In this document: positions 28,571 to 34,435 of the stretch, in pieces
Position numbering within the stretch: the stretch's first letter is position 1
How the letters are laid out: each line of letters begins with the position of its first letter
Assembly (NCBI GenBank): GCA_937934115.1
Contig: CALHAH010000030.1
Location: forward strand, 1 to 64,000
Reading direction: 5' to 3'
DNA length: 64,000 bases
Origin: an uncultured Thermoanaerobaculum sp.
Lineage (GTDB): Bacteria > Acidobacteriota > Thermoanaerobaculia > Thermoanaerobaculales > Thermoanaerobaculaceae
The notes under the pieces: generated by a model
Databases searched by the model: none
Told to the model about the DNA's origin: nothing
What the model saw: only the letters and a program-made list of their open reading frames with translations
Translations under genes and position numbers: made by a program

Positions 28571-28684
28571 CAACCTGCCTTTTACTCCCCACGGCCGGAG
28601 CGTTTCTCCTGAGGCAACGGCGCGGGGCTTGGGCAACAAGCTCCCACATTACACCTCCAACCCGGAGGCGGCGGTTGCAAAAAG

Positions 28685-28720
28685 GGGTACCTCGTGCAGC
28701 TCTGCCCGCAGAAGGTACCC
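28685..28720 (+). promoter_or_regulatory. Inverted repeat in the leader of the kbl-like gene
   Basis: GGGTACC (28685-28691) and GGTACCC (28714-28720) form a 7-bp stem with a 22-base loop, about 50 bases upstream of the start codon. The 202-base gap 28571-28772 has no other recognised element. It could be a leader regulator or chance. Confidence 0.3.
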
Positions 28721-28772
28721 GCACTGCCACCTCCTCCTCCTGGTGGTACGCTACGCATGCAAGGAGGTCTTT

Positions 28773-29999
28773 ATGTCACTGGTGCGTCTTTCCGCATCGC
28801 TCATGGAAGAGGTGAGAGCTTTGGAGCAGGAAGGTCGAGCTAAAGCCCCGGAACGGGTGGTGGTGGGGTACGTGCCGCCCCAGGACGGCCTTGGACCCCG
28901 GTACCGTTTGGCCGGCTCCGACACGCTCTTTTTGCGCATGAACTCCAACTCCTACCTTTCCCTTTCCCACGATCCGCGCCTTTTAGAAGCCGCCGATCGC
29001 GCCACCCGCGAGCTGGGAGCAGGGCCTGGCGCGGTTCGCTTCATTGACGGCACCTTCTCCTACCACGTGGCCTTGGAGGAGCGCATTGCCCGCTTTGTGG
29101 GCAAACCCGCCGCCAAAATCTTCAACGCCGCGTACACCGCCAACCTGGGACAGGGGTTGGCTTTAGCTTCTGCGCAAACCTTTTGGATTGGGGACGAGCT
29201 CAACCACAACTCCATCATCCGTGCCATGCGCATTGCTGGAGTTCCCCGAGAAAACCGCGCCATTTACAAGCACAACGACCTTGCGGAGCTCAAAAAGTGC
29301 TTAGACGCGGTGCCCTCCGGCATGGAAAGGGTGGTGGTGATCTTTGACGGCATCTTCTCCATGCGCGGGGACTTCACGCCCTTGGCCGAGGTTAACCAGG
29401 TGCTGGAGCCTTACCGCGACCGCTTCCCCAAGGGGCTGGTCACGGTCATGGACGACTCCCACGGCATTGGCGCCTACGGCCCCACCGGAAGGGGCACCGA
29501 AGAGCATACCCGCGCCGCCTGCGACATCCTGATTGGCACCTTTGGTAAGGCCTTTGGCGTGAACGGTGGTTTTGTGGCCTCCTCTCCGGAAGTCATCGAG
29601 GCCATTCGCCAAAAGGCCGACACTTACATTTACTCCAACCCCTTGGGCGTCGGTGACTGCGCTGCGGCCTTGGAGGCGGTCAACATAGCCGACTCCGCTG
29701 AGGGCGTTGCACGCTTGCGGGCGGTGGCAGAGCGGGCAAAGCAGTTCCGGGAGGGCGTGCAAAAGCTTGGCTGGGAAACCATCCCGGGGCCACACCCCAT
29801 CGTGCCCCTTTTGGTCCGCGACACCGCCCGCGCCAAGCGCTTGGTACAGCACTTCTTCCAACACGGCGTCCTGGTGGTGGGCCTCACCTACCCGGTAGTC
29901 CCCCGGGGCGAAGAAACCATCCGCTTCCAAATCAACGCCGCCCACACGGAAAACGATATTCAGTACGTTTTGGAGGTGCTGGCGAGGTTTAGCGGTTAA
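28773..29999 (+). CDS. Alpha-oxoamine synthase (KBL/SPT/BioF family)
   Basis: 408 aa from the ATG after AAGGAGG. PLP-dependent fold type I: NSNSYLSLSHDPRLLEAA, GPGAVRFIDGTFSYHVALEE, the cofactor Asp in DDSHGIGAYGPTGRG and the aldimine Lys in GTFGKAFGVNGG. Closest in feel to 2-amino-3-ketobutyrate CoA ligase, but serine palmitoyltransferase-like activity is not excluded. No threonine dehydrogenase neighbour. Its last ~175 bases are repeated at 30828-31002 beyond the toxin-antitoxin pair. Confidence 0.9.
   Translation: MSLVRLSASLMEEVRALEQEGRAKAPERVVVGYVPPQDGLGPRYRLAGSDTLFLRMNSNSYLSLSHDPRLLEAADRATRELGAGPGAVRFIDGTFSYHVALEERIARFVGKPAAKIFNAAYTANLGQGLALASAQTFWIGDELNHNSIIRAMRIAGVPRENRAIYKHNDLAELKKCLDAVPSGMERVVVIFDGIFSMRGDFTPLAEVNQVLEPYRDRFPKGLVTVMDDSHGIGAYGPTGRGTEEHTRAACDILIGTFGKAFGVNGGFVASSPEVIEAIRQKADTYIYSNPLGVGDCAAALEAVNIADSAEGVARLRAVAERAKQFREGVQKLGWETIPGPHPIVPLLVRDTARAKRLVQHFFQHGVLVVGLTYPVVPRGEETIRFQINAAHTENDIQYVLEVLARFSG
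29825..29999 (+). repeat. Direct repeat copy 1 (3' end of the kbl-like gene)
   Basis: Pairs with 30828-31002. The first ~130 bases differ at only about four positions; the last ~45 diverge more (ARFSG versus RAFQG at the protein end). Confidence 0.9.
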
Positions 30000-30821: not shown

Positions 30822-30827
30822 AAAACC

Positions 30828-31002
30828 CGCCCGCGCCAAGCGCTTGGTACAGCACTTCTTTTAGCACGGCGTCCTGGGGGTGGGCCTCACCTACCCGGTA
30901 GTCCCCCGGGGCGAAGAAACCATCCGCTTCCAAATCAACGCCGCCCACACGGAAAACGACATCGCGTACGTGCTGGAGGTGCTCCGCGCTTTCCAAGGGT
31001 GA
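30828..31002 (+). pseudogene. Duplicated 3' end of the kbl-like gene (repeat copy 2)
   Basis: Reads ARAKRLVQHFF, then TAG where copy 1 has CAA, then HGVLGVGLTYPVV and on to the normal end of the protein with its own stop (RAFQG*). No start or upstream part exists. It is the leftover of a gene end displaced by, or carried with, the toxin-antitoxin insert. Confidence 0.88.
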
Positions 31003-31149: not shown

Positions 31150-32929
31150 GTAGCCTCCCCGACGGCGCTTCTGAGTTCTTCGCGGACGCGACGCGGGTCC
31201 CTGCACAGGCAAAAGACCCACCGTCCGAACTCCCCGTGTTGGTTCACGGCACGGGCCCATCGCTCGGCGGCTACGGCCTTTTGGCGGTCACGCTCCGATT
31301 CGTACTTCTTTCCTTCGAGAACAACGTTGACACGCTTGCCCTCTTTGCCAGCGCACAATGTAATCTGGGCGGTACTCGTGCCGGGTTCCGTCCCCCTCAT
31401 AGGGAATTACGAAATCCAGGTGATCGTTGCGGACGGAGGCGACTACCTCCGGGGCGTTTTCCAGGGAGAAGGCCACGCTGTGTTCCCCGGAAGGGGCATC
31501 AAGCACCACATGGCTGACGTGGCTCTTGCTGGTCCCCACTGTGGGACGTACCGTACGGAAGAGCACCTCTGACGTGGAGCCCAGCGGTCGAAACCGCTCA
31601 ATGACCGGCAAGCAGCGGCTCACCACCCTCCGTATCCGGTTCAACGGCCTCGATCAGAGGTTCGATGATGCGCTGCTTGTATTTGAGCAACGCAATTTCT
31701 TCCAGCGGCGTCTTCTCGTCCTCCACCACAACCCGTTCCTCCAAATACTGCCAGACGATGGCCAGCACTTGCGGAAACAGGATGTGTCGTGCATTCCACT
31801 CGTCGCGTTTATCTTTTAGGCGGCGGGTAACTTGCGCCGCAATCTCGTAAACCGTGGCTTGTAGGCGTTTTTCGCTGTGGAAGGGGTTACGGTCGTGAAC
31901 CGCCTCTGGACCTGGACCCAGCCGGTCAGGGCGCCGGATGGGGTATCCGACAGCCGGTTTGGCTGTTATTTCGGTGGGTTCCTGAGTCGGGTCAATCCCA
32001 AGGTACGGCAAATTCTGTAGGTTCACGCGAAGCCGCTAACGCACGTCAAAGACGTAGCCTTCCACCCTCGGAAAGGTAATTTCTAGATGCTTGCGTTCGG
32101 GCAAAGCGCGCACAAGTGTCGAGACCTTCCCCACCTCCGCGCCTCCGAGGGCTTTCTTCTTGACGGTGCCACTTCGAATGGCACGCCGTAAACGTCCACA
32201 TATTCGGGTTCATTAGAGTCGTCGTAGTTGATGCGCCGCAGACCCCTCCCCACCACCTGCTCACACAGGAGCTGTGAAGCAAACGCCCGCAAACCCAGAA
32301 TCTGCGTCACGTTTTGGGCATCCCAGCCCTCCTTCAGCATCCCAACGGACACCACGCAGCGGATGTCCTTGCCCGGCGGGTCGCCTCCCCCTTCCCATTC
32401 GGTCTTGCCAATGGTGTCCAACACCTTACGCAGTCGCTCAGCGGCTTCCTTTTTTCTTTCCCCTTCGATGGCGCTTTCGGCTTCCGCTAGGAGTTTCGTG
32501 TCAATCCGGAAGGTAACCTCGTGACCTTGCCGGTTTTCCAGTTCGGCCAACACGTTCCCTCGCGCCATGTGCTCGTGCCCGAGCTTGGCCAGGTCCGTGT
32601 TATCGCACACCACGATCAAGACGGGAGGGACAGGCGAGTTAGCCCTCTGAAACTCCTCTAATGTTCTTTTCCACTGGGAGGCCAAGGTTGCCAAAGCACC
32701 TTCGGCTTCGCGCAGCACGGACTCAGGCCTAGCCCGCCGGCGGGCCTTCTGCCGCTCAACTGGTGCTCTTAATTTTCCCTTGCTGTAAACGCTCCATCAC
32801 CCCACGGGGCAGGAGGTAATAGCCCGCCGGCCGCCGCCCCTCCACCCGCATCGGCTGGCCCTCCCGGTAGTCCCAGTAGTAGGAGGGTTCCTCAAAGGGC
32901 GAGTTGATGATAGGGTTGTCAACGAGCAT
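31150..32929 (-). pseudogene. Type III-like restriction endonuclease (DEAD helicase) remnant
   Basis: The minus strand begins MLVDNPIINSPFEEP at 32929 with AAAGGAG upstream, reads about 57 codons to a TGA, and then lacks the central helicase. It resumes near 32720 with [33 protein letters not shown] and [14 protein letters not shown] (helicase motifs V and VI). Further lesions: a frameshift near 32170 (before [13 protein letters not shown]), an in-frame TAG at 32036-32038 (after GYVFDVR), a one-base insertion near 31608 and a frameshift near 31350 (before RVNVVLEGKKYE). The C-terminal nuclease-like part (GRWVFCLCRDPRRV) fades near 31150. At least five disabling changes; clearly dead. Confidence 0.85.
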
Positions 32930-33200
32930 CGCATGTCATCTCCTTTGTGAACGACTTCAGCCATTGGTCAAATTCGTCCTCGCCAAGCCGCTGAGGGTTT
33001 TCCCGATCCAAATGCCAGCGCAGGGGGTTTTCGGTGATGTACTGGCAAATACGGTTCAAGGAGTCCTCGTTGCGGATAATGTGTTCGTAGTAATTCTGTT
33101 GCCATAATCGGCCGCGAAACGGTGGCCAGCCCGATTGTTTGACGCCGCGAAGATATTCATTGGTGGTCATGGTTTTCAACCATTGTACAATTTCCGGTGG

Positions 33201-33222
33201 GGGCGCACCTATATGTGCGCCC
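33201..33222. repeat. REP-like palindrome inside the RAYT gene (1)
   Basis: GGGCGCAC-CTATAT-GTGCGCCC, perfect 8-bp arms, 6-base spacer, translated as part of GAHIGAP. Confidence 0.85.
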
Positions 33223-33254
33223 AATTCATTTGCGTGTGCGCCCATTCCGTTATC

Positions 33255-33278
33255 GGGGCAGACACGTAGGTCTGCCCC
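33255..33278. repeat. REP-like palindrome inside the RAYT gene (2)
   Basis: GGGGCAGAC-ACGTAG-GTCTGCCCC, perfect 9-bp arms, 6-base spacer, translated as part of VGADLRVCP. Same arm-spacer architecture as the palindrome 33 bases away. Confidence 0.85.
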
Positions 33279-33542
33279 TACGATTATGATAATTCCATGG
33301 AAATGGTTGGGCATGACGACATATTTATCGGTTCGAACACCTGGGAATTTGCGATTCAATTTTACCCACCATTTCTCCACCATCCGCCCATCATCGTTCA
33401 ATTGCATTTCCCCATCCACCACCTCGCCAAACAGACACAAACGGTCTTGGGTGCAGATGGTGACAAAATACGCGCCCGGTCGGGAATAATCGCGTCCCTT
33501 CAGGCGAATGCTGCGGCGATGATGTCTTTCTGGGTCGTATCT

Positions 33543-34000
33543 CATGGATAGTGTCCACCCTCTAAGTCGACTACCCGCACGACCTCATTCCCTCGAAAAT
33601 CAATCACTTTGACGGCGATCCGCTTGTGCTCGCCAGGCTGGAAAGGGAACGAGATGGTGCCGCGCATCTACTCAAAAACCTCGGGATCAATCTGGGCTTT
33701 GAGGGCGCGGTGCAGTTTGTCCCAGGCGTCGGGGTCGCCGGGGAAGAAGGACTAACAAATGTGAAAGGTCTTACCGTCGTAGTCGGTATCTAAGAACCAG
33801 GCAGCCACGTGGCTACCGCGCGTATGCTCCGTTTCGCCCGTCAACGGGTCGTAGATGTCCACCCCGCGCAGTTTCACAACAAACGTGCCGTCCTTGTAGG
33901 TTGGCGCCATACCCGCCGGTGGGTTGTTTTTCCGTTTGGCTTCCTCGTAGCGAAAATCCTGTACCGGAGGGGAGGTATGGCGAATTTTCTTCTTTGGCAT
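33543..34000 (-). pseudogene. DNA methyltransferase (mod) remnant lacking its catalytic domain
   Basis: From the ATG at 34000: MPKKKIRHTSPPVQDFRYEE and KRKNNPPAGMAPTY are the N-terminus of a site-specific DNA methyltransferase. It jumps at once to the extreme C-terminal part (VKLRGVDIYDPLTGE, VAAWFLDTDYDGKTFHIC). Two in-frame TAG codons follow (after FHIC and after DPEVFE) before RGTISFPFQPGEHKR and the terminal TGA, which overlaps the RAYT start. The whole AdoMet and target domain is missing. Confidence 0.78.
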
Positions 34001-34435
34001 TTGTTGCCCTCTAAAAGGCGTCGCCCCCACCTCGTCCACTGCCCCCCTGCGCGCCACCGCAAAGAGCTTCCGATCCGGAGCGCAGCTCAACGGGAACTCA
34101 CGGGGAGCATTGTATCCACAAACCTCCTGTGCTTGGCTATCGCGTAATAGCTGCCAGGAAAAAGGCAGTGAGCATCGGTGTGCACATGGGCTAAGGGCTT
34201 TAAAGCCGCCCTGCTCGATGGCAGTCCCATGCGCGCGCCTGATAAGCCCACCAGTGGCCGAGCCCAGCTTCAAAGCCCTTTCTCCTGGCCTCTGGAACGT
34301 GGCGGCGCCTGTTTTGCCCCATGAGCTCCGCCCCCAGCGGGGAAAGCTCCAGCGTACGCAAGAAGCTTTGCCGGAAAGACCCGCTTTTACGGCTTACAGG
34401 TTTCTGTAAGCGGCCAGGAGTGCCAGAAAGGGGCG
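34001..34435. other. 435-base gap with one hairpin
   Basis: No gene recognised. GCTTACAG-GTTT-CTGTAAGC (34392-34411) is a perfect 8-bp inverted repeat just beyond the patatin gene stop and may end that minus-strand transcript, though no T-run follows. A TACAAT on the minus strand near 34106 could be a relic promoter of the methylase remnant. Confidence 0.4.

Follow-up and report, generated by a model that had tools for sequence, protein, structure and literature searches.

REP hairpins in the reading frame of a subclass 2.4-type REP-associated tyrosine transposase are conserved as paired DNA

REPs located in frame inside the transposase gene, generally between HuH and Y, are described by Quentin 2018 (PMC6006769) as unique to TnpAREP subclass 2.4. 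The same description gives the subclass the motifs NH[IFV]H, WQ and YIxNNP, proposes that its insert is a harmless peripheral extension, and reports REPs flanking the gene (the REPtron) for a large majority of the subclass, although not as an absolute rule. The TnpAREP proteins of E. coli and S. maltophilia cut single-stranded REPs in a manner dependent on both GTAG and the stem. REPs within other genes have been described by Di Nocera 2013 (PMC3733652), where a GTAG REP is defined by a stem of 5-13 bp that carries a 5' GTAG at its foot and has a loop of 2-20. The canonical REP tag is GT[AG]G, and two inverted hairpins with this tag make up the extragenic REPIN or BIME (Bertels and Rainey 2011, PMC3116915). 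The origin of REP families and how their matching to a transposase persists is an open question.

The window analysed here, a stretch of 64,000 nucleotides from an uncultured Thermoanaerobaculum sp., contains a REP-associated tyrosine transposase (RAYT or TnpAREP) gene at 32919-33545 on the minus strand, with an open frame of 208 amino acids. It is the only RAYT gene in the genome. In the translation the HUH motif is NHFH (residues 80-83), WQ is found at 148-149 and the catalytic tyrosine is Y169 within YITENP; H81, H83 and Y169 are invariant in 29 aligned homologues. The protein matches NF047646, the model for REP-associated tyrosine transposases, with E=4e-16. Its scores are under the curated NCBIfam and Pfam cut-offs (59.2 bits for a cut-off of 80, and 22.7 bits for one of 23), since the insert divides the match to the model in two. 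E. coli TnpArep (PDB 4er8) is the only solved relative found by sequence profile and is also the top fold match (E=5e-7) of an AlphaFold2 model based on the 29-sequence alignment. The Y1 core of this model is confident, with 82 residues at pLDDT >=90, and the protein combines an HUH motif, a single catalytic tyrosine and the Y1 fold, as expected of a Y1 HUH enzyme. The identification as a RAYT made in a first-pass annotation of this DNA thus holds, given the NF047646 match and the agreement of sequence profile and fold on 4er8.

Between the strand that carries the HUH motif (residues 81-88) and the helix at 116-138, the RAYT has a loop of residues 89-115, encoded at 33195-33285 on the minus strand. 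Residues 91-99 and 101-111 are predicted to be disordered (pLDDT <50 in the AlphaFold2 model, a check that the annotation had proposed). The published description of subclass 2.4 (group 4 in the table of Quentin 2018) includes a variable-length insertion between beta3 and alphaC, in-frame REPs between HuH and Y, short repeats inside the insert and an occurrence in scattered phyla, all of which are likenesses to the window RAYT, and NHFH and WQ agree with its NH[IFV]H and WQ. The differences from that description are that YITENP is one residue off YIxNNP, that one of the tags is GTGG, and that the gene has no flanking REPs, none being found elsewhere in the genome either. Judged by its insert and in-frame REPs, the window RAYT is of the subclass 2.4 type. 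The annotation had presented the gene as an exceptional case, but the literature has had in-frame REPs as a hallmark of this subclass since 2018 and the window is one more example. The E. coli TnpAREP, which belongs to subclass 2.2, is the best sequence-profile and fold match but lacks a REP-encoded insert, and the E. coli REP has a bulge.

The two hairpins are both in the RAYT frame, between NHFH and Y169. REP 1, the first along the coding direction, is found at 33255-33278 on the minus strand (GGGGCAGAC-CTACGT-GTCTGCCCC, or GGGGCAGAC-ACGTAG-GTCTGCCCC on the plus strand) and is an exact palindrome with 9-bp arms and a 6-base spacer. Its tag is GTAG at 33278-33281 on the minus (coding) strand, the final G being the ninth stem base, and the tagged unit, GTAG-GGGCAGAC-CTACGT-GTCTGCCC on the coding strand, encodes V89-P97 (VGADLRVCP). 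REP 2 is inverted relative to REP 1 and is found at 33201-33222 on the plus strand as GGGCGCAC-CTATAT-GTGCGCCC, an exact palindrome with 8-bp arms and a 6-base spacer, which the gene reads as GAHIGAPP (residues 109-116). The tag of REP 2 is a variant of GTAG, namely GTGG at 33197-33200 on the plus (template) strand, giving GTGG-GGGCGCAC-CTATAT-GTGCGCCC. With this variant tag and with the loop CTATAT in place of CTRYGT, REP 2 may be decaying. Together the two REPs form a head-to-head dimer with the tags pointing outward. The arms, the spacers, the REP-like character and the coding position between the HUH and tyrosine regions had all been recognised correctly in the annotation; only the gap, given as 33 bases, is 32 when counted.

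The coding strand folds more strongly than shuffled sequence (z = -4.0 for DNA, -4.2 for RNA), and no shuffle out of 200 did as well. Between the two REPs, half of REP 2 is present in an imperfect tandem duplication at 33214-33251 (no strand assigned) with a period of 21 nt, in which the 17 nt at 33214 and at 33235 are 82% alike; it adds one more GTGCGCCC arm at 33236-33243 and gives the protein the repeat GAHANEL/GAHIGAP. The RAYT loops at L019, L022 and L027 have half-REP tandem expansions adjoining the second REP, for example GAHADALS or GAHNAYS three to six times, and the window RAYT carries a two-copy version of such an expansion.

The dimer resembles a REPIN or BIME in its two inverted GT[AG]G-tagged hairpins, and a REPIN-like unit is also found outside genes in related genomes (e.g. 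G010, G015 and G016), but the window dimer is coding and present as a single copy in its genome. The structure of a GTAG REP as defined by Di Nocera is found in REP 1 with GTAG and in REP 2 with the variant GTGG; repetition in the genome was not found, there being only two sites, both in the RAYT gene. Palindromes in frame in proteins are also known from intragenic GTAG REPs and Rickettsia palindromic elements (PMC3733652), but these are in unrelated host genes at varied sites, whereas here they occupy a fixed loop of the transposase itself.

Each palindrome pattern has a single perfect copy in the window, where the longer one is expected by chance 0.12 times at up to 3 mismatches. The pattern GGGGCRSAC-N6-GTSYGCCCC, searched for in the genome with up to 3 mismatches allowed, occurs at the two sites in the gene, with 0 and 1 mismatch, and at one further site with 2. 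The last of these (C5:781) has unrelated surroundings and no tag and was taken as a chance match; a further candidate (C7:2381) has a shifted hairpin followed by a T-rich run and was taken as an intrinsic terminator. No REP copy was found outside the RAYT gene in the window or the whole genome, nor was a second copy of the hairpin region found in this genome, so the spread of the units as coding inserts that the annotation had suggested is not seen here. The gene is absent from two genomes of the same genus, and a distant match is found in only a few of 15 genomes of the same family. This patchy occurrence fits horizontal acquisition, and the window RAYT was likely acquired horizontally and not amplified in this genome.

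Remnants of a type III restriction-modification system flank the RAYT gene on both sides, at 32083-32718 and 33752-34273 (PADLOC matches), and the restriction fragment shares 79% identity with a gene on a Thermus brockianus plasmid. Further away in the window, an aminotransferase-like gene (28629-29999, PF00155) is partially duplicated: 157 nt at its 3' end (29824-29980) recur 1003 bases downstream, at 30827-30983, with 94% identity.

A comparison with homologues, which the annotation had also proposed, was made with 80 related genes from GTDB species genomes, giving 81 genes with the query, of which 74 (query included) have no internal stop. In-frame hairpins in the loop are common to homologues in at least 17 phyla, the number spanned by the named rows, in a set picked by similarity to the whole window protein, loop included. 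The 81 genes contain 142 perfect hairpins with arms of at least 8; 130 of them are in the loop, spread over 72 genes, and 52 genes have two or more perfect hairpins. Their density is 11.1 per kb in the loop against 0.2 and 0.4 elsewhere in the genes. With a caller allowing one mismatch, which was also used for the order and tag counts, only three loops have no REP. The order is plus then minus in 58 genes and the reverse in none; of the 70 in-gene REPs in plus orientation 62 are tagged GTAG, the tag CTAC is found in 66 of 74, and 67 of the 70 first REPs share one reading frame. The stem types also have a fixed polarity, the first being AGAC or GGAC and the last GAAC or GCAC. The fixed plus/minus order is not by itself taken as proof of a single insertion, because a REP dimer is symmetric; the stem-type polarity was used instead. 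Loops hold from 0 to 5 REPs, and this number changes at least 19 times on a tree of the core protein (the protein without the loop), many branches of which are weakly supported.

A second REP class with C for A at stem position 7 (GGGCNNCC) is found in seven homologues (L049, L050, L051, L053, L054, L072 and L084). These genes have two REPs of the second class and use a different frame (GQPHRVAPT type) for the second of them, which suggests co-specificity between enzyme and REP. Palindromes of other sequence are present in frame in more distant RAYTs of the same class: L102 has four copies of GGGCGCAGCATGCTGCGCCC, of which three are close to the N-terminus, and L104 has GGGCGACCCGCCGGGTCGCCC and GGGGCGAGGCAGTGCCTCGCCCC.

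The recurrence of the motifs VGADLRVCP and GEHxGSPL across phyla might suggest that the segment VGADLRVCP...GAHIGAPP is conserved as ordinary protein for a function at the protein level, with palindromes as a by-product. This explanation is largely refuted and now very improbable. When synonymous codons are shuffled within each gene, the 130 loop hairpins drop to a mean of 4.0, with a maximum of 9 in 20 shuffles. To avoid circularity, the segments for base comparison were picked by their amino-acid sequence (53 with VGxxxxVxP and 60 with GxHxGxP). The variable stem pair is paired in 53/53 first REPs, compared with 31.5 expected from the columns, and in 59/60 second REPs, compared with 25.8. 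The encoded residues covary as base pairing demands (Glu-Ser 34, Ala-Ala 13, Gly-Pro 8 and Thr-Val 2; 0 of 5000 permutations), and the variable pairs have changed at least 10 times in the first REP and at least 11 times in the second on the core-protein tree. Codons of the motifs are near-invariant at sites free to vary (GGG 53/53, GAC 50/50, GAA 34/34, GGT 59/59 and CCC 59/60), compared with a median share of 0.55 for the most frequent codon at conserved positions in the rest of the gene. The predicted disorder of the loop and the other frame used for the second REP in homologues of the second class also speak against a protein-level function. A role in the mRNA, where the hairpins slow translation, alter mRNA stability or regulate transposase expression, agrees with the strong RNA fold (-42.8 kcal/mol), and mRNA structure is reported to regulate an IS transposase of Pseudomonas putida (PMC8450116). 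It is nevertheless improbable, given that 53/53 and 59/60 of the variable pairs above are Watson-Crick with no bias for G-U wobble and that the GTAG and CTAC tags outside the stem and the CTRYGT loop are conserved as in extragenic REPs, which would be superfluous for an RNA hairpin alone.

REPs elsewhere in the genomes of 79 loci were counted with a strict pattern for which control matches were zero or near-zero. In 19 of the 67 loci with the pattern in their RAYT gene, all consensus REPs found in the genome sit in that RAYT gene, a number that depends on the strict pattern and on genomes that are mostly incomplete MAGs. In 26 of the 67 the genome has at least 10 other REPs, up to 97. The density of strict REPs is 2.5 per kb within RAYT genes, compared with 0.10 per kb in the flanking DNA. 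Several genomes have extragenic copies that likewise form head-to-head pairs, with the same stem types. Where no other REPs were found, 31 of 32 in-gene REPs (query included) have intact stems, compared with 73 of 81 in the rest (p = 0.44). Because bases covary, codons are near-invariant and stems are intact also in genomes where no other REPs were found, the loop hairpins are, on this comparative evidence, kept as DNA and not as ordinary protein sequence. The annotation had said that its reading would fail if the genome had no other copies and the segment was conserved as ordinary protein; the other copies are indeed missing, but the conservation is that of paired DNA.

The explanation we prefer, with slightly more confidence than doubt, is that an old REP dimer is resident in the subclass 2.4-type RAYT, is kept as DNA and is probably a resident copy of the substrate on which the encoded enzyme itself acts. 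The head-to-head GTAG-tagged pair encoding the loop after the HUH strand would be an old resident of the gene, maintained as a DNA structure while the disordered loop tolerates the resulting amino acids. By analogy with cutting by the TnpAREP of E. coli and S. maltophilia, the RAYT would recognise the in-gene hairpins when the strand is exposed, and each gene would carry a standing copy of the single-stranded substrate of its own enzyme. Once the gene has reached a new genome, REPs outside it might be seeded from the in-gene copy or kept compatible with that copy. In the window genome we infer that the RAYT arrived by transfer and did not produce an extragenic population. A substrate in frame would keep enzyme and substrate linked through horizontal transfer, and the genomes in which REPs were found inside the gene alone make the idea of a seed copy directly testable. 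A further-reaching version is rather doubtful: the in-gene dimer would be a permanent, inherited master copy whose perfection is kept by selection, enzyme and substrate would cross phyla together, and extragenic populations would arise afresh and die out.

Alternatively, genomic REPs may repeatedly enter a flexible loop as tolerated selfish insertions with no role, their perfection being due to recent insertion, conversion or horizontal transfer. This is possible, if tentative, and is near to the reading in the published accounts of Quentin 2018 and Di Nocera 2013. It agrees with the varying number of REPs per loop, the different palindromes of more distant RAYTs (L102 and L104, for example), and extra in-frame REPs outside the loop in eight homologues (L021, L022, L028, L043, L060, L074, L086 and L088); in the 26 genomes with many other copies the gene may possibly have been reinfected from outside. 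The fixed stem-type polarity is harder to reconcile with it, since a dimer could insert either way, as is the shared frame of nearly all first REPs. The 19 genomes with intact stems and no other consensus REP found speak against selfish refreshment as the whole story, although recent transfer, which could explain intact hairpins without selection, incomplete assemblies and the strict pattern leave room for it.

The published descriptions cited here do not state the polarity of the dimer, the covariation driven by pairing, the invariance of the codons or the existence of genomes in which consensus REPs were detected in the gene alone, though the supplementary figures of Quentin 2018 may cover a part of this. 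Among the homologue genomes, Anaerobacterium chartisolvens has several RAYT-like matches clustered at L062 (10001-14673) and a genome in which head-to-head REP pairs recur in regular arrays at intervals of about 350 bases.
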